From: a virus
IMG/VR virus record: IMGVR_UViG_3300042691_009763
Coordinates: 1-32,291 of that record
Length of the DNA: 32,291 bases
Strand: one strand, 5' to 3'
In this document: piece by piece, positions 1,920 through 32,291 of the stretch
How the letters are laid out: each line of letters opens with the position of its first letter
Numbering within the stretch: the stretch's first letter is position 1
The notes under the pieces: generated by a model
The model's database searches: none
What the model was told of the DNA's origin: nothing
What the model saw: the letters and a program-made list of their open reading frames with translations, nothing else
Translations under genes and position numbers: made by a program

Positions 1920-3145
1920 GCCGCCCCCGAAAACAGGTCAGCAGTGCGGGGCTTGTCGTCGTTTGCTGCGTTGATGCGCGCGCGTGCAATTTCCAGGTAC
2001 TCCGCCTCCCGCTCGATGCCGACAAAGCCAAAGCCCTCCATCATGGCCGCCTTGCCTGTGCTGCCGCTGCCCATAAACGGGTCTAGCACCAGGCCACCAG
2101 GCGGGGTGACGAGGCGGCACAGGTAGCGCATGAGGTCGGTGGGCTTCACCGTCGGGTGGTGGTTGCCGTTGCGCGCCGGCCAGTCGGCATCCTCGCGATC
2201 GCGCATGGTGGCGTGCATGGCAACGGCGGGAGTACTCGACCCACCAACACCTTCGTTCCGATCGGTCCGACTCGCCTTGGCGCAGTAGAAAAACCGGGCG
2301 GCGGATCCGGTGTCGGCGTGGAAAGCACCAGGCACGCGGTCGCGCTTGCCGGTCACCCGGCCAACACTGGCCGCGCTCGACTCGTCACCACGCACGGGCG
2401 CCGCGGCTCCAGACTGGGCAGGAAAGCACGCCAGCACTTCGTCGCTCCCGTCGTGGATGAGGTTGGCGGGCCACCGACCGGGCGGCTGAACGAACTCGCG
2501 GCCTACAGTCTTCCCGGCCACGTTCATGCCGCTCGAGTTCAGCGAGCCGGACACCTGCCGGCCACCCTCATCCGCGTAGGCGCCGCCGCTAAGGTCATCC
2601 GACGTGGGCACCCTGCACCCGTCGATGTTCAGCGCCCCGGTACCATGCTCCAGCACGTTGGCGGCCACGGTGCCAGCCAGCGGCTTGCGGGCAACGGTGA
2701 TCGGCTCCAGGGCGGGCTTCAGGGCGGTGCCCCAGCCTTGCCAGTCGCCGGCCAGGTTGCGCGACTTCGGAAACCCCGACCCGTAGACCCAGGCGATCAT
2801 GTCGCGGATCTCGAAGCCGGCGTCCTCAATGCGCGCGGCCATGCGATGCTGCGTCCGCGTGCCGGCAAACGCCAGCAGGTGAGCGCCCGGCTTCAGCACG
2901 CGCAAGCACTCCACCCACACATCGACGGGCGGAACATCGCTGTCCCACTTCAGGCCCATGAATCCGCCCTTGGTGGCGCCAGCCTTCGCGCGGGAATACG
3001 GGTTGTCGGCGCCCTTACCGCCAGGCCCGCCGCCGTCGTTGGTCAGACCATACGGCGGGTCCGTGACGACGGCGTCCACGCTGGCATCAGGCATGCCGCG
3101 CAGGATCTCCAGGCAGTCGCCGTGGTGCAATGCAAATGTATTCAC
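1916..3145 (-). CDS. DNA methyltransferase, N4/N6 type (beta-class order)
   Basis: S-adenosylmethionine-dependent DNA amino-methyltransferase of 409 residues. Catalytic motif IV lies near the N-terminus (TDPPYGL, residues 28-34). SAM-binding motif I lies near the C-terminus (DPFMGSGSTGKAA, from about 355), after TVKPTDLMRYL. That order (IV, target-recognition region, I) is the beta class, whose members make N6-methyladenine or N4-methylcytosine. Start is GTG 3145, overlapping the TGA of the upstream gene (GTGA). The frame stays open upstream only as a shadow of that gene. No restriction endonuclease is encoded nearby, so it looks like an orphan phage methylase that may protect phage DNA from host restriction or affect regulation. 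Target sequence cannot be read from here. Confidence 0.93.
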   Translation of the reverse strand: MNTFALHHGDCLEILRGMPDASVDAVVTDPPYGLTNDGGGPGGKGADNPYSRAKAGATKGGFMGLKWDSDVPPVDVWVECLRVLKPGAHLLAFAGTRTQHRMAARIEDAGFEIRDMIAWVYGSGFPKSRNLAGDWQGWGTALKPALEPITVARKPLAGTVAANVLEHGTGALNIDGCRVPTSDDLSGGAYADEGGRQVSGSLNSSGMNVAGKTVGREFVQPPGRWPANLIHDGSDEVLACFPAQSGAAAPVRGDESSAASVGRVTGKRDRVPGAFHADTGSAARFFYCAKASRTDRNEGVGGSSTPAVAMHATMRDREDADWPARNGNHHPTVKPTDLMRYLCRLVTPPGGLVLDPFMGSGSTGKAAMMEGFGFVGIEREAEYLEIARARINAANDDKPRTADLFSGAA

Positions 3146-3357
3146 ACCCGCCCCCAGCAGTTGAAGGCGCGGCGCACCAGGTAGCCCCGGACGATCGACA
3201 GCACCGTGAAGATGATCGTGATGCCGATGTTCTGGCTGAGCGTGAAGGCGTGCCCGAACAGCGGGTAGACGACGAAGGAAGCCAGGACCGAGACCACGAA
3301 GCCGACGGCAACCCCGGCAACGGTCTCGACCAGCGACATGCGGCGGGACTGACTCAC
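3142..3357 (-). CDS. Small two-TM membrane protein, DUF7220-like
   Basis: Protein of 71 residues with two hydrophobic segments (about 9-32 and 41-60) and basic ends (QSRR at the start, RGYLVRR after TM2). This resembles the DUF7220 family of small phage membrane proteins that usually sit among early genes. The start is GTG 3357, overlapping the stop of the ribbon-helix-helix gene (GTGA). An alternative ATG six codons later (MSLVET) lacks an obvious ribosome binding site. Function unknown. A holin role is less likely because it is not in the lysis cassette. Confidence 0.8.
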   Translation of the reverse strand: MSQSRRMSLVETVAGVAVGFVVSVLASFVVYPLFGHAFTLSQNIGITIIFTVLSIVRGYLVRRAFNCWGRV

Positions 3358-3542
3358 TTCCCGTCCCCGCCTTCCTTCTGCTCGGCCTGCCGGCGGCGCT
3401 CCAGATCGGCCTCCAGCGCCCGCCGGATGATGGCCGACCGCTGCACGGGCAGCCCCGTGCGCTGGGCCTCGGCCTCGGCCAGCTCGTCAATGCGCGCAAC
3501 CAGATCGGCTGGCGCCCTGAAGTTGATGTAGACGTGGTCCAT
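3354..3542 (-). CDS. Ribbon-helix-helix (Arc/CopG-like) DNA-binding protein
   Basis: Protein of 62 residues with the MetJ/Arc/CopG arrangement: a short N-terminal strand (DHVYINFRAP) for major-groove contacts, then helix A (ADLVARIDELAEAE) and helix B (QRSAIIRRALEADL). The basic/acidic C-terminal tail is probably disordered. ATG 3542 is chosen because GGAAAGGA lies 5 nt upstream. A longer frame to ATG 3578 would add 12 residues but has no comparable site and would run into the probable promoter. As first gene of the leftward operon, next to the divergent promoters, it is a good candidate for an autorepressor or early switch (inference). Confidence 0.85.
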   Translation of the reverse strand: MDHVYINFRAPADLVARIDELAEAEAQRTGLPVQRSAIIRRALEADLERRRQAEQKEGGDGK

Positions 3543-18429: not shown

Positions 18430-19683
18430 TTAGTGGCCGACGGCCATGAAATAACCGATAGTCGAAGCACCCGAACCGCGATTCCATGCAAAACCGGTTG
18501 TAGTGGGAGTCGATGTTAAATATGGCGCAGTCGCAGATGAGGCCATCCCTGAAACAGTGACGGACCGAACAGAGTTCGGAAACGCGATCGGGAAAGTTGC
18601 CGACCCAGTCGTTGCAGAAGACCCATCAAACGACCCCCACTGCACAATCAACCCACTCGGCAGCCGTTGCCAGCCGTTCGCGGAAAGCGACGACCCGAAG
18701 GCGCCAGCATTGCCAAACTGCGCCGTCCCGCCGCCGTGATACCAGAGCGCTCCGGTGCCCAGCGAATTCAGCACGATGCTGTCACCTGCACGCAGCGTGA
18801 CAGACGTCACGGTGTTGGTGGTGTTGTTCAGGACGATGGTGTCGCTGCCGGCGCGCTGAACGATGACATCGTTCACGCCGGTATTGATGATGTTGAACCT
18901 GGCGCCGGGCGACAGCGCGTTTGCAGCCGGCAGGGTCAGCGTAATGGCTGCGCCGGTCGTGGATGCGTAAATATCCATGCCGGCATGGGCTGCGCTCAGC
19001 GTGGTATTCGCCGTCAGGCCGACAAACCCCCGGGAGTTACCCAGTGCGCGCTGCACGAATTCAGTGGTGGCCAGCGAGGTGTCGGCGTCAAACTGTGCGG
19101 CGGTCGGCGCCGTGGGGTTGCCCAGCAGGGGCGTGTTCTCGGTCAAGCAGGTGAAGGTCAGCGACGTGGAGCCAATCGAGATGGCGCCGTTGGTGGTCAG
19201 GAACCAGAGCGTGTCAGCGTAGGTCGTGCCCTCCGTGACGAAAACGGCGACGCCGGATCGAATCTCGCTGTCGGCGTTCATGTCCTCTGCGCGCGCCCAG
19301 GCGCTGGCGCTCACCACGTAGATGCCGTTCTGGCTGGGCGTGGACTGGCTGCGCACCAGCACGCGATTGCCTGCCACCACAGCCACGCCGTCGATGGTCT
19401 GCGTTCCGGACAGCGTGATGTTGGCCGACGTCACGGCGCGCACGGGGTCCTTGAAGGCCAGCTTCATCAGCTCGGCCTGCACGTAGTTCTGCGTGGCGAT
19501 GCCCGGCGGCACCGTGGTGCCAGCCTCCAGAAGATCGACGCGCGACTTCAGGAAAGCCGTGCGGTTGGTCAGGTTCTTCAGCGGGGCGTTGGTGACGCCA
19601 CTCGGGCCGCCCAGCACGGGGTCGCTGGTTTCGATCTGGTAGACGCCAGCATCGTATTGAACAAGTTCGGGCAGGTTTGCCAT
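18430..19683 (-). CDS. H: Tail fibre protein
   Basis: Receptor-binding fibre of 417 residues. The N-terminus (DPVLGGPSGVTNAPLKNLTN) is the usual baseplate attachment region. The middle (about 80-330) is Thr/Ala/Ser-rich and beta-structured, with ASTTGAAITLTLPAAN and TIVLNNTTNTVTSVTLRAGD. The C-terminus from NGWQRLPSGLIVQWGSF to GYFMAVGH is the gp53-like fibre tip domain that binds host receptors. ATG 19683 overlaps the gpI stop (TAATG). Codon use is a little less GC-biased near the 3' end, as expected for a swapped tip domain. Confidence 0.92.
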   Translation of the reverse strand: MANLPELVQYDAGVYQIETSDPVLGGPSGVTNAPLKNLTNRTAFLKSRVDLLEAGTTVPPGIATQNYVQAELMKLAFKDPVRAVTSANITLSGTQTIDGVAVVAGNRVLVRSQSTPSQNGIYVVSASAWARAEDMNADSEIRSGVAVFVTEGTTYADTLWFLTTNGAISIGSTSLTFTCLTENTPLLGNPTAPTAAQFDADTSLATTEFVQRALGNSRGFVGLTANTTLSAAHAGMDIYASTTGAAITLTLPAANALSPGARFNIINTGVNDVIVQRAGSDTIVLNNTTNTVTSVTLRAGDSIVLNSLGTGALWYHGGGTAQFGNAGAFGSSLSANGWQRLPSGLIVQWGSFDGSSATTGSATFPIAFPNSVRSVTVSGMASSATAPYLTSTPTTTGFAWNRGSGASTIGYFMAVGH

Positions 19684-21499: not shown

Positions 21500-21787
21500 T
21501 CATCCTCCCGCAAAAACACTGGGCGAGCCCTGCGCCACGACGCTGCCGCAGGCCACGGCGTCACCGATGCGCGCCAGAGCCTGCCCGTTGACGAACACGC
21601 TGGTGCTGCCGGCCGACAGCACCGACGCATGGCATGACGCCCCGCAGCAGTGAGACGCCCAGCCGTCGCCCTGGCGGTGGGCGCGGATGCCGTTGATGTA
21701 CACGTTGCCGCTGGCGCCCGTGGATGGCCTCGGCGGGAAACAGCCGTGGCCAGTGCACACATCGCCGAGTCTACTCGCTGCCGGCAT
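21500..21787 (-). CDS. PAAR-domain tail spike tip protein
   Basis: Protein of 95 residues with PAAR-type repeats: AASRLGDVCTGHGCFPPRP, GNVYINGIRAHRQGDGW and VFVNGQALARIGDAVACG. The several Cys and His are suited to the metal site at the tip of the cone. PAAR proteins sharpen the membrane-piercing spike of contractile tails. Length is standard for a one-domain PAAR. Start ATG 21787 overlaps the stop of the repeat protein by one base. No toxin domain is fused. Confidence 0.93.
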   Translation of the reverse strand: MPAASRLGDVCTGHGCFPPRPSTGASGNVYINGIRAHRQGDGWASHCCGASCHASVLSAGSTSVFVNGQALARIGDAVACGSVVAQGSPSVFAGG

Positions 21788-23448
21788 CAGACGGTCTCCA
21801 GAAGGTTGAGAAGGGCCGCGCGGTGGGCGTCCCAGTTGTTGGCCACGAACACGTCGAAGGTCCGGGTGTCGGACTGGGCGTTGTTCGAGACCATGATGGT
21901 GATGGATCGCGTGTCATCGACGGCAGTCGACGCCAGCCATTGGTATGGGTCGGAGCCGATCGGCACCGCCGCCGGACTGGGTGTCTGCCCGAAGGCGATG
22001 CCGTCCCGGTAAAAGATGTTGCCGGGCGGCATGAACAGGCTGCTGTCTCCGGACAGCGTGACGCCTCCCGCCCCCACGGTGACCACCACCGAAGCCGGCA
22101 GGCCGTTGGCCAGCACGGTGTAGACCTGCGGGCCGTTGACCGGCAGGATCTGCGCGGAGATGGTCTTGTTGACGGCGTCGCCCTTGACCAGCGCCAGGAT
22201 TTCCCCGGAGTCGTCGCTCCACGTCACGCCGGCCTGCTCGAAGGTGGCCGTGAGCGTCGCCTCTGCGGCAAGCTGCGCGGCCAGCCGGACGGCAGTCTGA
22301 AGGGATGCCGTGACCGACGAGACTGACTGCGGGCTGGCCGCGATCTGGATGGCCGTGGATAGCTGGGCAGTGATCGCCGCCTGGCCTGCCGTGCTGGCAG
22401 CCAGCAGGATGGGCGACAGCAGGGCTGCGGATACCGTGGCTTGGCCCTGAAGGTCGGCGGCGATAAGCCTCAGCGTGAACAGCTCGGAAGCGGATGCGCT
22501 CGCCTCGCCGGCCAGCGATGCCGCCAGTTGGATTCCGGTCGTGAGGGCGGCCGTGGACGATGCTTCGCCGGCCAATGCAGCTGCGAGGATCGTCTGTGTC
22601 GTCAGGCTGGCCGTCGTCGTCGCCAGCCCCTCAAGGCCTGCGGCCAGCCGGATGTCGGTCGTCAGCGACGCGCCGGAACTCGCTTCTCCAGACGTCGCAG
22701 ACGCCAGCAGGATGGCCGTTTCCAGATTCGCGGAGACCATCGCCTCGGCGGCCAATCCGGCGTAGAACAGCGTCTGCGTGGACAGTGCCGCGGCGGTTTC
22801 TGACAGCCCCTCCAGACCTGCCGCCAACCGGATGTCCGTCGCCAGACTTGCCGACTGCGACGACAGCCCCTCAAGGCCTGCGGCCAGCCGGATCTCGGTG
22901 CTGATCGACGCACTGGCGCTCGACTCGCTCGCGGTCTGCGCGCCCAGCAGGATCTGCGTCGTCAGAGCCGCGCTGGCGTCGGAAAGCCCCTCCAGGCCGG
23001 CCGCCAGCCGGATGTCGGTGGCGAGCGCGGCGCCGATGCTGGCCTCGCCTGCGGGGGCGGCCTGCAGCAGTACAGCCGTCGTCAGGCCGGCTGACGACAG
23101 GGCCTCGGCGCCCAGCGTGGCGGACAGCCTGATTTCAGTCTGCAGGCCGGCGCTGACGGTGCCGGTGGCCGTCAGGTCTGCGCCCAGGCGCGACGCGATC
23201 AGCAGGTCGGCGGTGATCTCTGCCGTGGCCTGCGCAGATGCCGCCAGCAGGATGGCGGTCTGAAGCTGCAGCCCCGTGACGGGCGCGGGGTCGTGGTACT
23301 GGCTGCCGTCGTAGGCATAGACGCCGTCGTGGACGATGCCTCGGGCGTCATGCTGGCGCGTGCCGTCATAGGACAGCACGCCATCGTGAAGCGTCGCGGC
23401 ACCGACTCCAGTGCGCGCAAGCGCGACTGCGGATGCCGCGAGCGTCAC
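21787..23448 (-). CDS. Tail-associated protein with seventeen 20-residue repeats
   Basis: Protein of 553 residues, Ala-rich. Residues 20-53 contain HDG/YDG units (LHDGVLSYDG, VHDGVYAYDG). Residues 62-402 are seventeen tandem units of 20 residues (one has 21) with pattern LxTxIxLAAxLxGxAxxxAx. Residues 403-553 form a separate domain beginning FEQAGVTWSDDSGE, probably beta-rich. I recognise no named family. Start is GTG 23448, 7 nt after the preceding stop. It is encoded between a virion protein and the PAAR tip, inside the baseplate block, so it is likely structural (a fibre or sheath around the spike, or a side fibre). The strict period suggests a solenoid or extended rod. Confidence 0.85.
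   Translation of the reverse strand: MTLAASAVALARTGVGAATLHDGVLSYDGTRQHDARGIVHDGVYAYDGSQYHDPAPVTGLQLQTAILLAASAQATAEITADLLIASRLGADLTATGTVSAGLQTEIRLSATLGAEALSSAGLTTAVLLQAAPAGEASIGAALATDIRLAAGLEGLSDASAALTTQILLGAQTASESSASASISTEIRLAAGLEGLSSQSASLATDIRLAAGLEGLSETAAALSTQTLFYAGLAAEAMVSANLETAILLASATSGEASSGASLTTDIRLAAGLEGLATTTASLTTQTILAAALAGEASSTAALTTGIQLAASLAGEASASASELFTLRLIAADLQGQATVSAALLSPILLAASTAGQAAITAQLSTAIQIAASPQSVSSVTASLQTAVRLAAQLAAEATLTATFEQAGVTWSDDSGEILALVKGDAVNKTISAQILPVNGPQVYTVLANGLPASVVVTVGAGGVTLSGDSSLFMPPGNIFYRDGIAFGQTPSPAAVPIGSDPYQWLASTAVDDTRSITIMVSNNAQSDTRTFDVFVANNWDAHRAALLNLLETV
22243..23265 (-). repeat. Tandem 60-bp coding repeats (17 copies)
   Basis: DNA encoding the 20-residue units. 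Several units are nearly identical at DNA level, for example the stretch reading GGCCTGCGGCCAGCCGGAT near 22636 and again near 22874, with close variants near 22817 and 22998. Such repeats could change copy number by recombination or slippage. Confidence 0.88.
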
Positions 23449-23455
23449 GTCAGTC

Positions 23456-23896
23456 TCAGTTGTCTTCTTGGAACGTGAACGTGCCCGCCGGGAAGCTCGG
23501 CGCGGCGTCGCCGTTGTTCACGGTCTTGGCCTGGGTCAGGTTGCCGTACAGCAGCAGGTTGCCGCCGGTGGCCGCGTCGAACACGCCCACGGCCACGATG
23601 GAGCCCCAGTTGGCCGTCGGCGCTGCGAAAGTGATGGCGGCGTTGTTGCTGGTGGTGCCGCCGGTGCCGGTGGACGCCGTGGTGCTGCCAGCCGACTGTG
23701 TGCCGGCGAAGCTGGTCAAGCTTCTGGCGACCGACACGCGGGCGTAACTGCCGCCACTCACCTCGGTGCCGCCTCCGGCGTCCGTGGGCGCGACCGTGAA
23801 CAGCGCATAGTGAAAGTTGGTCGGCGGCGTGAAGGTCTGCCCACGGAAGAACCAGTCGATCATCTGGTTCTCAAGGTAATTCGTCTTGGCTGCCAT
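23456..23896 (-). CDS. Phage virion/tail-associated protein, Gp80-like
   Basis: Protein of 146 residues with a recognisable N-terminus (NYLENQMIDWFFRGQTFTPP, then FHYALFTVAPTDAGGGTEVS and GGSYARVSVAR). It matches a widespread phage family often labelled tail fibre or Gp80-like. The rest is Gly/Thr/Ser-rich and beta-structured (NWGSIVAVGVFDAATGGNLL). Function is not established. Its place between baseplate V and the repeat protein supports a structural role at the baseplate. ATG 23896 lies 10 nt after the gpV stop. Confidence 0.8.
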   Translation of the reverse strand: MAAKTNYLENQMIDWFFRGQTFTPPTNFHYALFTVAPTDAGGGTEVSGGSYARVSVARSLTSFAGTQSAGSTTASTGTGGTTSNNAAITFAAPTANWGSIVAVGVFDAATGGNLLLYGNLTQAKTVNNGDAAPSFPAGTFTFQEDN

Positions 23897-26683: not shown

Positions 26684-27070
26684 TCAGGCGGCCAGATTGG
26701 TTTTGAGGAAGATGCCGGCGTCACGCAGCCCAGCCTTGGTGGACGCAGCGGTGTGGCCCGCTCCGAACGTGAGCGCGGCGGTGTTGAACTCGCCGGTCAG
26801 GTAGGCGACCGTGGTCTTGTCGGCGCTGGTGGCGTCGGTGTCCTCGGCCAAGATGGCGGTTGGGGTCTGCGAGCCGTCAGAAGCCGCAGACGCCGACAGC
26901 ACGTACTTGCCCGAAGCGGTGATGCGGCCCAGCACGGCGCCGCGCGAGAGGTTGCCGGTGTCGAGAACGATGCTCTCGGTCACCACCGGCACGCCGTCGC
27001 CGGCGATCAGGTTGTCGTGAGTGTGAGAGCCGGCGGCGTTGTCAAAGGCCGGCTGCAGGTTCGTGGTCAT
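26684..27070 (-). CDS. Head decoration protein (lambda gpD family)
   Basis: Protein of 128 residues that trimerises on the capsid surface and stabilises the expanded head. It carries HDNLIAGDGVPVVTESIVLD, NLSRGAVLGRITASGKYVLS and a TPTAILAEDTDAT block, matching lambda D and its Pfam family HDPD. It starts 16 nt after the protease stop and ends 12 nt before the capsid start. Confidence 0.94.
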   Translation of the reverse strand: MTTNLQPAFDNAAGSHTHDNLIAGDGVPVVTESIVLDTGNLSRGAVLGRITASGKYVLSASAASDGSQTPTAILAEDTDATSADKTTVAYLTGEFNTAALTFGAGHTAASTKAGLRDAGIFLKTNLAA

Positions 27071-27527: not shown

Positions 27528-28343
27528 GGAATCAAGCTCCTGCTTCATCGATTGAAGTGTTCCCTCAAATGTGCCAATACCGTCGATCATCCCGCGCTTC
27601 AGAGCCTCAGATGCGACGAATACAGCGCCTTGTCCAAAGGATTCTAGCACCGTCTCTGCGGTCGTGTTGCGATTTCGCGCCACAGTGTCGATAAACACTT
27701 GGGCGAGCGCGTCGACGTTGCCCTGAATCTGAGCCGCGCCGGCATCGGTTTCCGGGCTGGCGTTCTTCATCGGCGACTGGCTGGACACGAACCGGTAGGA
27801 CTTCTCGCCGGGTCGGCCGTCCTTGACGGTGTAGCCCGCCTGCACGCCGATGCTGCCAGCGATGGCGGTGTCTGCGGTGATGATCTTGTCGGCCGCGCTG
27901 GCGATCCAGTAGGCGGCGCTGGCCACCGTGCCGCCCACGTAGGCCCACACGGGCTTTTCGGCCTGGCGCACCATGGCCGCGAATTCGCTGGCCCCGTTGA
28001 CCTCCCCGCCGGGGCTGTCGATGCTCAGCAACACAGAGCCGATGTTCGGGTCGGCCAGGGCCTGCGCGAAGTCGCGCGCCAGCACTTCGTAGCTGCTGGC
28101 GCCGCTGAACTCCGTCATCAGGTTGGCGCGGCGAAACAGCGGGCCTTCCACGGGGATCACGGCCACGCCGTCGCGCACGGTGGCCGTCATGGTGTTGCCC
28201 AGCGGGCGGCCCAGCTTGGCCTCCAGCGCCTGCAGGTTGCCGTGGTACTCGCTCTCGCGCTCCGCGATGCTGGCGATGGTCTCCAGCCATTCGGGCTGAA
28301 TGGCCCAGTTGGCGGCCAGCACGGCCTCGATGGCTTTCTTCAT
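27087..28343 (-). CDS. S49-family prohead protease with C-terminal scaffold
   Basis: Protein of 418 residues like lambda gpC. The N-terminal ClpP/SppA-fold protease domain (about 55-260) contains SIDSPGGEVNGASEF (107-121) and the catalytic Ser in GGTVASAAYWIAS (S142). It matures the prohead by cleaving scaffold and portal. Residues from about 273 are a charged, Ala/Lys/Glu-rich helical region serving as scaffold. ATG 28343 overlaps the portal stop (ATGA). Confidence 0.94.
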   Translation of the reverse strand: MKKAIEAVLAANWAIQPEWLETIASIAERESEYHGNLQALEAKLGRPLGNTMTATVRDGVAVIPVEGPLFRRANLMTEFSGASSYEVLARDFAQALADPNIGSVLLSIDSPGGEVNGASEFAAMVRQAEKPVWAYVGGTVASAAYWIASAADKIITADTAIAGSIGVQAGYTVKDGRPGEKSYRFVSSQSPMKNASPETDAGAAQIQGNVDALAQVFIDTVARNRNTTAETVLESFGQGAVFVASEALKRGMIDGIGTFEGTLQSMKQELDSMDYSKLTVASLTENRADLVAEITAAAVAGVEKVDADALRAEAAKSERERIAAIEAMEMPGTAELIAKFKADGTKPEVAAFEIIKAAKAGAPAKPAATAGAQHLDALKQTEDELNPPKAGSGEDAEPTLEEAAKAATALARKAGIDA

Positions 28344-29932
28344 TGGTCGTCCTCGTTGTCGCCCGGCGCGGCCGGCGCGGCGGCCGGCTGCGGCGCCAGC
28401 GGGTCAGCCGGCAGGGCGGTCAGTTGCGTGCGCTCGCGGCCGATCTGCGCCAGGTTGTCTTCGTAGTCGGTGCCGAACTGCTCGGCGGTGATCTGCTGGA
28501 TGGTCAGCGCGCCCGGGATGCCCAGCCACTCCTTGGCGGCCTTGGCTTCTTTCAGCGGGTCAAGCTGCCCCATGGGTGCGCCACGCCAGGTCGTGCCCAG
28601 CCAAGCGGCGCGGCGCAGCGGGTCATCAAAAAAGCCCGGCGCCTGCAGGTAGCCCCGCGCCACGGCCTCGCCGATGACCCAGGCGTACACGGGTTGGCAG
28701 TCGCTCGACACCAGCCACTGACGGCGGCGGCGGAACGACTTCCAGGCCTCCATGATGGCGGCACGGCTGGCGCTGTAGCTGGCCGTGAAGTGCTTCACCA
28801 GCACCTCGTGCGGCAGGCCCAGGCCCACGCCGATGTGCTTCAGGATGCTGGCCGTGAAGGGGTCGAATGCGGTGTTGGGCCGGTTCGGGTTGGCGAACTC
28901 CACGTCTTCGCCCGGCGCCAGGTCCATGATCATGCCGGACTGCAGCCGCGTCAGGCCGGTGCCGGTCGGCGTGATCTGCTGGCCCGCCACCTGGCCGGGG
29001 ATGGTGCCGGGCATGACTCCGCTGCCGGAGGGCATGGCGGTCTTGATGAAGACGCTGAACATCCCCGACACAACGGCGGCCGTCAGCTCGGCCTCGGTGT
29101 AGCGTCCAAGCTGCTTGAACTGCTCCATGACGGGCGCGAAAAGGCTGACGCCCCGCTTCTGGTCAGGCCGGCGGCGCACCCAGTGGTGCAGGCACAGCGG
29201 CGAGCCCTGCGCGTCGAAGGCCGGCACGCTGGTGAACTCGTTCGGGTTGCCGAGACGCGACAGGTAGGCGTCGCCCGGGTGATCCTTCAGGAAGTGGTAG
29301 CGCACGGGCTCGCCGTCGGCGTCCACCTCCACGCCACCAAACACCTTGCCGATGGGCGCATCCTTGCCGGGCGGCGTCATGCACCGGTCGGCCTCCACCA
29401 TCTGCAGGCAGGTGCCGAAGACCGAACCCTGGCGCGGCTTGAAGCGGCGCACCGTGAAGACGTCGCCAGACAGAAGGGTGTTGATCAGCACCAGCGCCTG
29501 GTGCTCCCAGTACGTGCCGCCACGCGTGACGTCAGACTCGCGGCTGTCGGCCCACATGTAGAAGAACCGCTCGGCCTGCGTCTGCCACGCCGAGGCCTCA
29601 GCCTCGGTCAGGCCAAGAATGGCGCGGTCGATGTTGGACTGAGGGCGCAGGCCGGTGGCCACCACGTTGTCGACGATGGTGTCCAGCGCGCCGAACGCCA
29701 GCGGATTGTTCCGGTCGAGGTCTCGGGCCTGCCAGCGCAGCGGGTCCATGTAAGGCAGCGTGTCGGCATCGGCGCTGCCCATGCTGACGTCCCATGCCGC
29801 GGTGTTCTTGTTGTCGCGCCGCACAGACTGGTAGCTCGACCCGATCTGCTGCCGGATCATGGCGGCAAGCGTTTCCTGCGGCAGGATCAGGCCGCCGAAC
29901 CGGCTGTCTTGCGGCGTCTGCACGTAGCTCAT
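28340..29932 (-). CDS. Portal protein (lambda gpB family)
   Basis: Protein of 530 residues forming the dodecameric ring at the capsid vertex through which DNA enters and leaves. It carries the lambda-family blocks RNNPLAFGALDTIVDNVVAT, RGGTYWEHQALVLINTLLSG, LHHWVRRRPDQKRGVSLFAP and PHEVLVKHFTASYSASRAAI. The C-terminus is Ala/Pro-rich and disordered. Length is close to lambda B (533). ATG 29932 overlaps the stop of the gpW-like gene (ATGA). Confidence 0.96.
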   Translation of the reverse strand: MSYVQTPQDSRFGGLILPQETLAAMIRQQIGSSYQSVRRDNKNTAAWDVSMGSADADTLPYMDPLRWQARDLDRNNPLAFGALDTIVDNVVATGLRPQSNIDRAILGLTEAEASAWQTQAERFFYMWADSRESDVTRGGTYWEHQALVLINTLLSGDVFTVRRFKPRQGSVFGTCLQMVEADRCMTPPGKDAPIGKVFGGVEVDADGEPVRYHFLKDHPGDAYLSRLGNPNEFTSVPAFDAQGSPLCLHHWVRRRPDQKRGVSLFAPVMEQFKQLGRYTEAELTAAVVSGMFSVFIKTAMPSGSGVMPGTIPGQVAGQQITPTGTGLTRLQSGMIMDLAPGEDVEFANPNRPNTAFDPFTASILKHIGVGLGLPHEVLVKHFTASYSASRAAIMEAWKSFRRRRQWLVSSDCQPVYAWVIGEAVARGYLQAPGFFDDPLRRAAWLGTTWRGAPMGQLDPLKEAKAAKEWLGIPGALTIQQITAEQFGTDYEDNLAQIGRERTQLTALPADPLAPQPAAAPAAPGDNEDDQ

Positions 29933-30156: not shown

Positions 30157-30234
30157 CGGCGCGTGTCAAGGGTTATCTGGCGCCGATTCTACTCGGAAAC
30201 TCAGTCCACACGCCATGTGGCAACGCTTAGCGGC

Positions 30235-30531
30235 TCACCTAACCCGGCAGCGCAGCGTAATGGTGCGGCTGTCTACACGCCCGACACTGGTGGTGATCGT
30301 GTTGGTCAGCACGTAGTTCTGCTCGGCGACTCCGCCTGCCGCGAAGACGGTGGCAAGCGTGTCGTCGATCACGGCGGCACGCGTCAGCGTGAGCCCCGCG
30401 CTGGCCGTCCAGTCGCTGTCCGTGATGGTCTCGCCATCGGTCAGCCAAGTGCTCCAGTCCACGCTGTAGTCCAGGTCTGAGCCCGGAGCATGCGCCGTCC
30501 ATCGCTTCCCATCGGGTTCGGTCTTGATCAT
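30235..30531 (-). CDS. Probable phage fibre-tail adaptor protein
   Basis: Protein of 98 residues, beta-rich. The pattern DLDYSVDWSTWLTDGETITD, then DWTASAGLTL, and a later VLTNTITTSVGRVDSRTITL resembles a small phage family labelled fibre-tail adaptor. Its ATG overlaps the stop of the 22-residue-repeat protein (ATGA), so the two are coupled and probably act together. Such adaptors join a fibre to the particle. A 78-nt gap with no gene follows it before gpW. Confidence 0.7.
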   Translation of the reverse strand: MIKTEPDGKRWTAHAPGSDLDYSVDWSTWLTDGETITDSDWTASAGLTLTRAAVIDDTLATVFAAGGVAEQNYVLTNTITTSVGRVDSRTITLRCRVR

Positions 30532-31661
30532 GCTGCGATCGTCCTGCTTTCGGGTTTGACCAGGATTATGCGCGGCTCAGCCCGCACGACGATGATGCGA
30601 TCCGGGTTCGGCTCATACACGCCATCGATGACCTGGCCGTCTGTGGCGGTGTTGGCCTGGGCGACGTCATTGGCGGCCAGCAGGTGCGTCTGAACGACGG
30701 CGCTGGCTGCGGCAATGTGATCCACCGCCACAGGGGCGGCCTGCAGCACGTGAACCTGGCCGACGGCGGCGGCCGTGCCGGTGTTGACCTGCTGCGCGCC
30801 CGACCCGGCAAGCTGGTGGATCTGCTGAACGCCTGCCGACGTTGACGTCGTCGGCTGGCTGGCGTTCGCGCCGGCAAGCGTGGTGGTGAGGCTAAATGCG
30901 CCCGACGTGCTGGTGTTCGGCTGCGCGGCCCCGGCTCCAGAGATCTGGTGCACCTGGGTGACTGCGGCGGCGGATGACGTCGTGTTCTGGCGTGCCGAGT
31001 TGGCGGCCAGCACGTGCGTCTGGGCGACTGCCGCGGACGTCGACGTGTGGTCGACGCGGACGCTGTTGCCGGTAAGCCCGGACGCGCCGGACACGGCCCC
31101 GCTGGTCGAGGTGTTGTCCTGCCGCGCACTGGCGCCGGCAAGGACGTGCGACGTGCTGACCGCGCCCGAAGTTGACGTGTTCGATGAGGCCGCGCCGTTG
31201 GCCGCCAGCACATGGGCCTGCGTGACTGCCCCCGACGTCGAGGTGTTCGGGACCGCGACGTTGTTGCCAGCAAGCGACCCGGAGCTGGAGATCGCTCCAG
31301 ACGTGCTGGTGTTGTCTTGGCGGGCGCTGGCCCCAGCAAGGACGTGGGTCTGCGTAACCGCGCCACTGGTGGATGTGTTGTCCTGACGGACGTTGTTGCC
31401 CGCCAGGGTGGCTGCGCCGGAGATGGCCCCGGAGGTGCTGGTGTTGTCCTGCTGTGCGTTCTCGCCCGCAAGGACGTGGGTCTGCGCGACCGCCCCGGAG
31501 GTGGACGTGTTGTCCTGGCGGACAGACGCGCCGGCCAGGACGTGCGTCTGAACGACGGCGCCGCTAGTGGACGTCGTGTTCTGGCGTGCCGAGTTGCCGG
31601 TGAGGGTTACACCGGGCCCTGCCCCGCCCGAAAGCCTTGGAACGCGGACGCGGAGCGGCAC
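30528..31661 (-). CDS. Structural protein with fifteen 22-residue repeats
   Basis: Protein of 377 residues. After a short N-terminus (LRVRVPRLSGGAGPG), residues 20-349 are fourteen tandem units of exactly 22 residues plus a fifteenth that diverges at its end. The pattern is LAGxSxRQDNTSTSGAVxQTHV. A C-terminal piece rich in Val/Ile/Arg (PDRIIVVRAEPRIILVKPES) could be the attachment domain. It looks like a beta-solenoid or fibrous shaft. Start is GTG 31661, 1 nt after the previous stop. Its gene overlaps the adaptor gene. I cannot name a family; a fibre or head/neck appendage is the best inference. Confidence 0.82.
   Translation of the reverse strand: MPLRVRVPRLSGGAGPGVTLTGNSARQNTTSTSGAVVQTHVLAGASVRQDNTSTSGAVAQTHVLAGENAQQDNTSTSGAISGAATLAGNNVRQDNTSTSGAVTQTHVLAGASARQDNTSTSGAISSSGSLAGNNVAVPNTSTSGAVTQAHVLAANGAASSNTSTSGAVSTSHVLAGASARQDNTSTSGAVSGASGLTGNSVRVDHTSTSAAVAQTHVLAANSARQNTTSSAAAVTQVHQISGAGAAQPNTSTSGAFSLTTTLAGANASQPTTSTSAGVQQIHQLAGSGAQQVNTGTAAAVGQVHVLQAAPVAVDHIAAASAVVQTHLLAANDVAQANTATDGQVIDGVYEPNPDRIIVVRAEPRIILVKPESRTIAA
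30615..31604 (-). repeat. Tandem 66-bp coding repeats (15 copies)
   Basis: DNA encoding the 22-residue units. The core ASTSGAV-type codons recur every 66 bp, and many units share long near-identical stretches (the RQDNTSTSGA coding segment appears five times). Units toward the C-terminal end (30615-30900) are more diverged, as expected if expansion happened in the N-terminal half. Confidence 0.88.
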
Positions 31662-31662
31662 G

Positions 31663-32291
31663 TCAGTTCCCGATCAGCGGCGGGCGGTTTTTGAACGGAT
31701 GCGCGGCGGGGAGGTTGTTCAGCGCAGTGATGTCACCAAATGAAGCTGCTCGCCATGCCATGTAGCCTTCCATGCGCTGGCGAAGCGCATTCGTTAGTGC
31801 AACACCTGTGAAGATAATCGCCTCGCGGATACGCCAGTTTGTCCATCGGCTAAACTTCACGCCGGAACCTACATCAACTGCCAAAGTCCCAACGTTAGAG
31901 CGCTGGGTCCAAGCGCCAGAAACCGTGCCGTCTACCGCGCCATTCCCCCAAGTGTTGATGAAGCCGTTGCCGATGGTGCCGCACAAGATGTTTGTTGTGC
32001 CGGTGGAGAAAGTCAGTGCGCCTGTGCCGTCATAGTTGCGCTGAGTGGCCGCAGTGTCATTTGTGTAACATGCGCTTTTTCCGTTCGACTTAATCATATA
32101 CGCCCATCCCGCCGTGGCCGGACCGAGCTCAGTGTAAAATTCAAACGGCGAGTTGTACGCATTGGTCCAAGACACTGCGCGCAACGACACGAAAAAAGAC
32201 ACAGGATAAACAAACGCCCAACCTTCGGGGCTGCGTTGAAGCGCGTCGTTTGAGCCGTCCCACAGAACCGATTGCGGTTGCAGAACGGCAT
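31663..32291 (-). CDS. Lectin-like (LamG/ConA-type) structural protein, 5' end outside window
   Basis: C-terminal 208 residues of a larger protein; the frame is open to the window edge, so a GTG at 32202 is not needed as a start. The pattern SVLWDGSNDALQRSPEGWAF, a series of beta strands (GYMAWRAASFGDI near the end) and the closing LPAAHPFKNRPP is the signature of phage LamG/concanavalin-like carbohydrate-binding modules. It probably binds glycans or decorates the virion. It runs 1 nt before the 22-residue-repeat gene. Codon use is less GC-rich than the neighbours, hinting at separate origin. Confidence 0.78.
   Translation of the reverse strand, partial: AVLQPQSVLWDGSNDALQRSPEGWAFVYPVSFFVSLRAVSWTNAYNSPFEFYTELGPATAGWAYMIKSNGKSACYTNDTAATQRNYDGTGALTFSTGTTNILCGTIGNGFINTWGNGAVDGTVSGAWTQRSNVGTLAVDVGSGVKFSRWTNWRIREAIIFTGVALTNALRQRMEGYMAWRAASFGDITALNNLPAAHPFKNRPPLIGN

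Follow-up and report, generated by a model that had tools for sequence, protein, structure and literature searches.

Three coupled genes at the right end of this 32,291-base virus record (the window, by which we mean the whole stretch of DNA analysed) probably make up the 3' portion of a mobile cassette for a neck fibre of the GP4/Bcep22 kind, which has entered the terminase-gpW interval of a myophage with a lambda-type head and a P2-type tail. They encode a lectin-like protein, a short-repeat protein that we call rep377, and an adaptor of the Gp77 family; the parts are known from other phages, and their combination and location are unusual.

Gene order at the right end of the window

Structural genes read leftward on the minus strand from the right contig end (Table 1), beginning with the lectin-like ORF (cut by the contig end) and continuing with rep377, the Gp77-family adaptor, gpW and the portal. 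Downstream of the portal come genes for an S49 protease, a decoration protein of the lambda D type and the major capsid protein, and further on those for the tail tube and contractile sheath, the baseplate and a tail fibre of the P2 type, which identify the phage as a myophage. The record has no repeat common to both ends. That coupled fibre-type genes adjoin gpW, as a preliminary description of this DNA proposed, is confirmed: a single base separates the lectin-like stop at 31663 from the GTG start of rep377 at 31661, and an ATGA overlap at 30531-30528 joins rep377 to the adaptor. The interval 30528-32291 proposed for them was too narrow, in that the adaptor gene (30235-30531) falls outside it. 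A promoter scan found none, and terminator-like sites occur near chance level.

Table 1. Features of the cassette, its surroundings and the second repeat-protein locus of the window
Feature	Position	Strand	Basis or remark
Lectin-like (LamG-like) virion protein	31663..32291	-	last 208 of ~277 residues, 95% identical to 277-aa protein of L009
rep377, rope-like protein	30528..31661	-	N-terminal MPLRVRVPR motif, ~15 repeats, C-terminal arginine tail
22-residue repeat region of rep377	30609..31598	-	residues ~22-351, last units degenerate
Arginine tail of rep377, R355-x8-R364-x8-R373	30543..30599	-	invariant columns, alignment A4
Gp77-family fibre-tail adaptor, 98 aa	30235..30531	-	Pfam PF23148 1.2e-23; PDB 8jou_D 5e-8
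Left boundary of insert	30192..30234	.	blastn: DNA similarity to cassette-free L002 starts at 30191
gpW-type head-tail adaptor, 75 aa	29929..30156	-	PHROG 118, 5.5e-13; 85% identical to L002
Lambda-family portal	28340..29932	-	PF05136 1.2e-98; anchor for comparison
Lambda D-type decoration protein	26684-27070		
Gp80-family protein (GP4 fibre I bead family)	23456..23896	-	PF23140 1.2e-42; 8jou_a 2.6e-10
rep553, second repeat protein, 20-residue period	21787..23448	-	follows Gp80 immediately; lacks both arginine tail and Gp77 neighbour
P2-type tail fibre	18430-19683

Terminase and the site of insertion

A terminase HMM search of the whole window returned no match, and the right contig end lies only 2,359 bp upstream of the portal. 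Related loci were gathered, mostly on the strength of a similar portal, among phage records, genomes and viral contigs; bacterial genomes were also scanned for the portal, where a single-protein query retrieved nothing and a profile scan retrieved 45 loci. Of the related loci, 80 contain both genes, and every one of them has terminase upstream of the portal, at a median distance of 435 bp (500 bp or less in 52 of the 80), and no Gp77, Gp80 or lectin-like gene occurs in the gap in any of these 80. The nearest relatives, L002 (portal 83% identical) and L003 (75%), have terminase followed by gpW and an empty site. Similarity of the window DNA to L002 begins at 30191 (blastn), between the end of the adaptor gene and gpW, and the cassette is therefore an insertion relative to close kin. 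The idea of an inserted appendage cassette thus gains support from the comparison with relatives, among which the order is not conserved throughout. The further suggestion that these genes stand where terminase belongs holds as regards insertion beside gpW, but replacement of terminase is unproven: its absence from the window is an effect of the contig edge, and the gene most likely lies just beyond it.

Other genes occupy the same slot elsewhere. Stutzerimonas/Pseudomonas phage ZRG1 has seven small ORFs between terminase and gpW, including an Nmad5-type gene, and a locus with a 46% identical portal (L017:1051-5210) carries a 4.2-kb insert there, which includes a protein of 508 residues that matches neither Pfam nor PHROG families. 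In L047 (9094-9585) a protein with a tail domain of the T4 gp10 C-terminal type lies in the terminase-portal gap, so the slot may repeatedly take tail-type genes.

The Gp77 adaptor and the rep377 repeat protein

Assignment of the 98-residue protein as a fibre adaptor is upheld by its membership of the Pfam Gp77 family (83.8 bits against a cut-off of 27), and it matches the structure of podophage GP4 (PDB 8jou chain D, E 5e-8). Podophages have neither a long tail nor a contractile baseplate. The 22-residue periodicity attributed to the neighbouring protein is likewise unmistakable: rep377 contains ~15 repeats, with a lag-22 score of 2.10 and a lag-44 score of 2.16 where the maximum of 200 shuffles was 0.40, and the repeat DNA shows periods of 66 and 132 bases. 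AlphaFold2 predicts rep377 alone as all-beta at modest confidence (mean pLDDT 62.7), each repeat forming two short strands. When this model was compared with PDB and BFVD by Foldseek, no hit fell below E 0.001, and repeat proteins of this kind (hereafter ropes) have no match among PDB sequences.

A short-repeat gene lies directly upstream of Gp77 in BcepIL02, where it is annotated as virion-associated, and in DC1, Itty13, PBC5, Atu_ph08, MaeJY04 and L008, an order that spans Burkholderia, Pseudomonas, rhizobial and Microcystis phages; in MaeJY04, PBC5, Itty13, DC1 and Atu_ph08 a Gp80 gene directly precedes the rope. Two records in this group appear to need correction: Agrobacterium phage Atu_ph08 (L113, ~2900-3450) has an unannotated rope-like ORF before Gp77 where the record calls an ORF on the opposite strand, and the Gp80-family protein gp53 of DC1 (L116:2190-2609) is annotated, probably wrongly, as a major capsid protein. 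The proposition that Gp77 is always preceded by a rope was rejected, because other kinds of gene lie upstream in most of 27 independent Gp77 loci drawn from ~1,170 bacterial genomes.

A conserved arginine tail

In an alignment (A4) of seven repeat proteins that precede Gp77, the only invariant residues are M1 and R355, R364 and R373 (rep377 numbering), the last three at an exact nine-residue spacing near the C terminus of rep377. The strict pattern R-x8-R-x8-R is present in 8 of the 8 main discovery cases, at a background of 2.2% in comparable ORFs, and is absent from the four repeat proteins that have no Gp77 beside them, one of which is rep553 of the window; BcepMigl, Atu_ph08 and CRP-345 carry variants that depart from it. 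As the motif was discovered on these same sequences, it was tested on the 27 independent loci. There, the three upstream proteins whose 20-22 residue periodicity is strongest (L140, L161, L162) all carry it, against 1 of the 24 others, on a period cut-off that was picked after the data were seen; the weaker repeat proteins of L135 and L164 lack the strict pattern. In Roseobacter phage CRP-345 a sequence resembling the arginine tail is encoded by a gene of its own, of 37 residues, which lies between those for the repeat protein and Gp77 (L104:7876-7989).

Identity and exchange of the lectin-like gene

The window holds 629 bases of the lectin-like gene, and the 208 residues encoded align at 95% identity with the end of the 277-residue protein shared by L009, L010 and L011; the L009 homologue matches PHROG 10356, a virion structural protein. 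The preliminary description had called this protein LamG-like, which the searches do not bear out: Pfam LamG models match none of six family members at E up to 10, and only the distant homologue S-CBS4 gp58 touches Laminin_G_3 (E 0.014; 16 bits against a cut-off of 27.6). The name 'lectin-like' that we use in its place is tentative: AlphaFold2 on six sequences gave an unusable model (pLDDT 32.5), so the fold is judged from weak similarity. A homologue in Pseudanabaena phage Pam2 (ON014754, 57610-58305) carries a neurotoxin-derived name that is probably an annotation artefact of a lectin-like fold.

In the Microcystis phage Mwe-JY26, whose genome is complete, lectin-like, repeat-protein and Gp77 genes form a triplet that matches that of the window and is preceded by genes of ~160 and ~140 residues. 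Homologues of both small genes are likewise found ahead of the lectin-like gene in L009, L054 and L055, and two such genes, of ~140 and ~150 aa, are expected just beyond the right end of the window. L054 has a Gp80-like gene further upstream, the equivalent of which would also fall beyond the contig end. In the low-GC viral contigs L012, L056 and L057, which may represent another phage type, the lectin-like gene follows other small genes and there is no visible rope.

At the DNA level the lectin-like gene is 92% identical to that of L009-L011, phages that have a portal of just 25% identity and carry the cassette between the portal and protease genes; the gene therefore moves between phages. 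Compared with L009, the gene is a mosaic in which blocks are either 98-100% or 84-92% identical, and identity collapses at the lectin-like stop codon. The GC content of the gene (0.56, against 0.667 for the window) stays at ~0.55 in the L009 locus, which has a GC of 0.67, and in the L054 locus, which has one of 0.50, from which it follows that its composition travels with it. Mosaic identity and constant composition fit a recent exchange of this gene, as judged from these sequence comparisons. Such exchange between unrelated phages suggests a route to new surface contacts that leaves the baseplate fibre untouched.

A second Gp80/repeat pair

The window encodes a further pair of such proteins, Gp80 and rep553 (21787-23896), between baseplate gpV and PAAR, a place from which it is absent in ZRG1. 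This pair might form another chain fibre, located at the baseplate.

A neck-fibre model and its alternatives

By our reading of the cassette as part of a neck fibre, a Gp77 ring would form around the head-tail connector, and rep377 would dock in this ring through its C-terminal arginine tail and extend as a flexible rope, with multiple lectin-like proteins strung as beads along the 22-residue repeats. The beads might bind sugars, and the whole would be a chain fibre that could make many weak surface contacts independently of the baseplate fibre. Among what we infer here, namely attachment, stoichiometry and binding, the neck attachment and chain form are well motivated, and the ring, the docking and what the fibre binds, if anything, are least certain. 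The original suggestion that the cassette may serve host recognition as a second system, apart from the P2-type fibre, is plausible.

The appendage could instead be attached at the tail or baseplate, the position beside gpW being a mere spot of insertion, and we regard this as unlikely though deserving of some weight. Actinophage Gp77 genes are found among minor tail genes, and the window's own rep553 is encoded among baseplate genes. The lectin-like cassette occupies differing genome positions in L009, L054, L055 and Mwe-JY26, so position alone says little. Against attachment there, the set adjoins head genes in GP4/Bcep22-like phages, and the solved Gp77 member is the fibre-tail adaptor of a podophage, GP4, which has a 15:12 fibre collar around its head-tail adaptor, as stated in the DEV paper (PMC10925440).

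Two other explanations seem to us very improbable, one of them a capsid coat made of the repeat and lectin-like proteins. PHROGs does place relatives of both in 'head and packaging', and the cassette genes adjoin head genes. Fibre I of GP4, too, reportedly also contacts the tail-vertex edges of the head. However, PHROG categories are annotation labels rather than tests, a lambda D-type decoration protein is already encoded in the window, and the Gp77 adaptor family is a fibre anchor that points to a neck ring, so the head decoration system that the preliminary description had entertained is not supported. Scarcely more credible is an assembly chimera, in which the right end of the contig would derive from another phage and the lectin-like gene would be foreign here; the contig does end within that gene, which differs in GC from the rest and is 92% identical to copies in other phages. 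But close similarity to L009 stops at the stop codon, and the junction with rep377 offers no shared word on which to join, which argues against misassembly. The low GC recurs in the L009 and L054 loci, the complete genome of Mwe-JY26 has the matching triplet, and rep377 and Gp77 are unaffected either way.

A broader version of the neck-fibre reading, which we put forward tentatively as possible rather than probable, would make the cassette a portable kit found in myophages, podophages and other tailed phages: a Gp77 ring, a rope in which R-x8-R-x8-R serves as docking code and repeat number sets length, and interchangeable beads, either Gp80 or the lectin-like protein with its two helper genes. 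Were this so, a second host-contact system might be gained or swapped by exchanging only the bead and the start of the rope. To our knowledge, structures of neck or chain fibres come from very few phages, and such fibres are rarely annotated. The cassette parts stand in existing records as hypothetical or merely 'virion-associated', and a signature of a short-repeat protein with a nine-spaced arginine end, followed by Gp77, would help to spot such fibres from sequence.

Comparison with known systems

ZRG1 is the nearest cultured relative (portal 63.5% identical), and its terminase-gpW slot is likewise filled, but with genes other than the lectin-like protein, rope and Gp77; nor does it have Gp80 or rep553 between gpV and PAAR.

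Anabaena myophage A-1(L) has a chain-like fibre on a 15-fold neck ring, and the carbohydrate-binding module at its distal end did not bind the host (PMC10966104). It resembles the window phage, for which a chain fibre on a neck ring is proposed, in being a myophage with several small genes in an operon, but A-1(L) has no rope, and its beads are trimers of gp81 linked head to tail. Searches by phmmer with Gp77 (to E 1), rep377 and the lectin-like homologue found no neck-ring or neck-fibre PDB chain of A-1(L).

GP4 is said to carry five chain-like fibres I, in which a rope protein connects Gp80 dimers and a 15-fold adaptor around the neck serves as anchor. BcepMigl gp56-gp59 parallels GP4 gp80-gp77 and ORF78 of GP4 is fibre II (PMC11966396), so the GP4 rope is probably gp79. 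The window shares with fibre I of the GP4/Bcep22 group (Gervaisevirus, Lessievirus) the Gp77 adaptor and, directly before it, a rope of 20-22 residue repeats with an arginine tail. It differs in that the lectin-like protein of 277 aa takes the place of Gp80, in that Gp80 is encoded elsewhere (23456-23896) with a repeat protein of its own, and in that the phage is a myophage with the cassette at the terminase-gpW site.

The unannotated triplet of Mwe-JY26 belongs to a different phage lineage, follows the major capsid gene and has a rope of 834 aa with a 23-residue period. Its gene order is nonetheless identical and its rope ends in the nine-spaced arginine tail; Gp77 is 38% identical, and the lectin-like protein is 26.5% identical over the full-length L009 homologue and 32% identical to the partial protein of the window over 96 residues.
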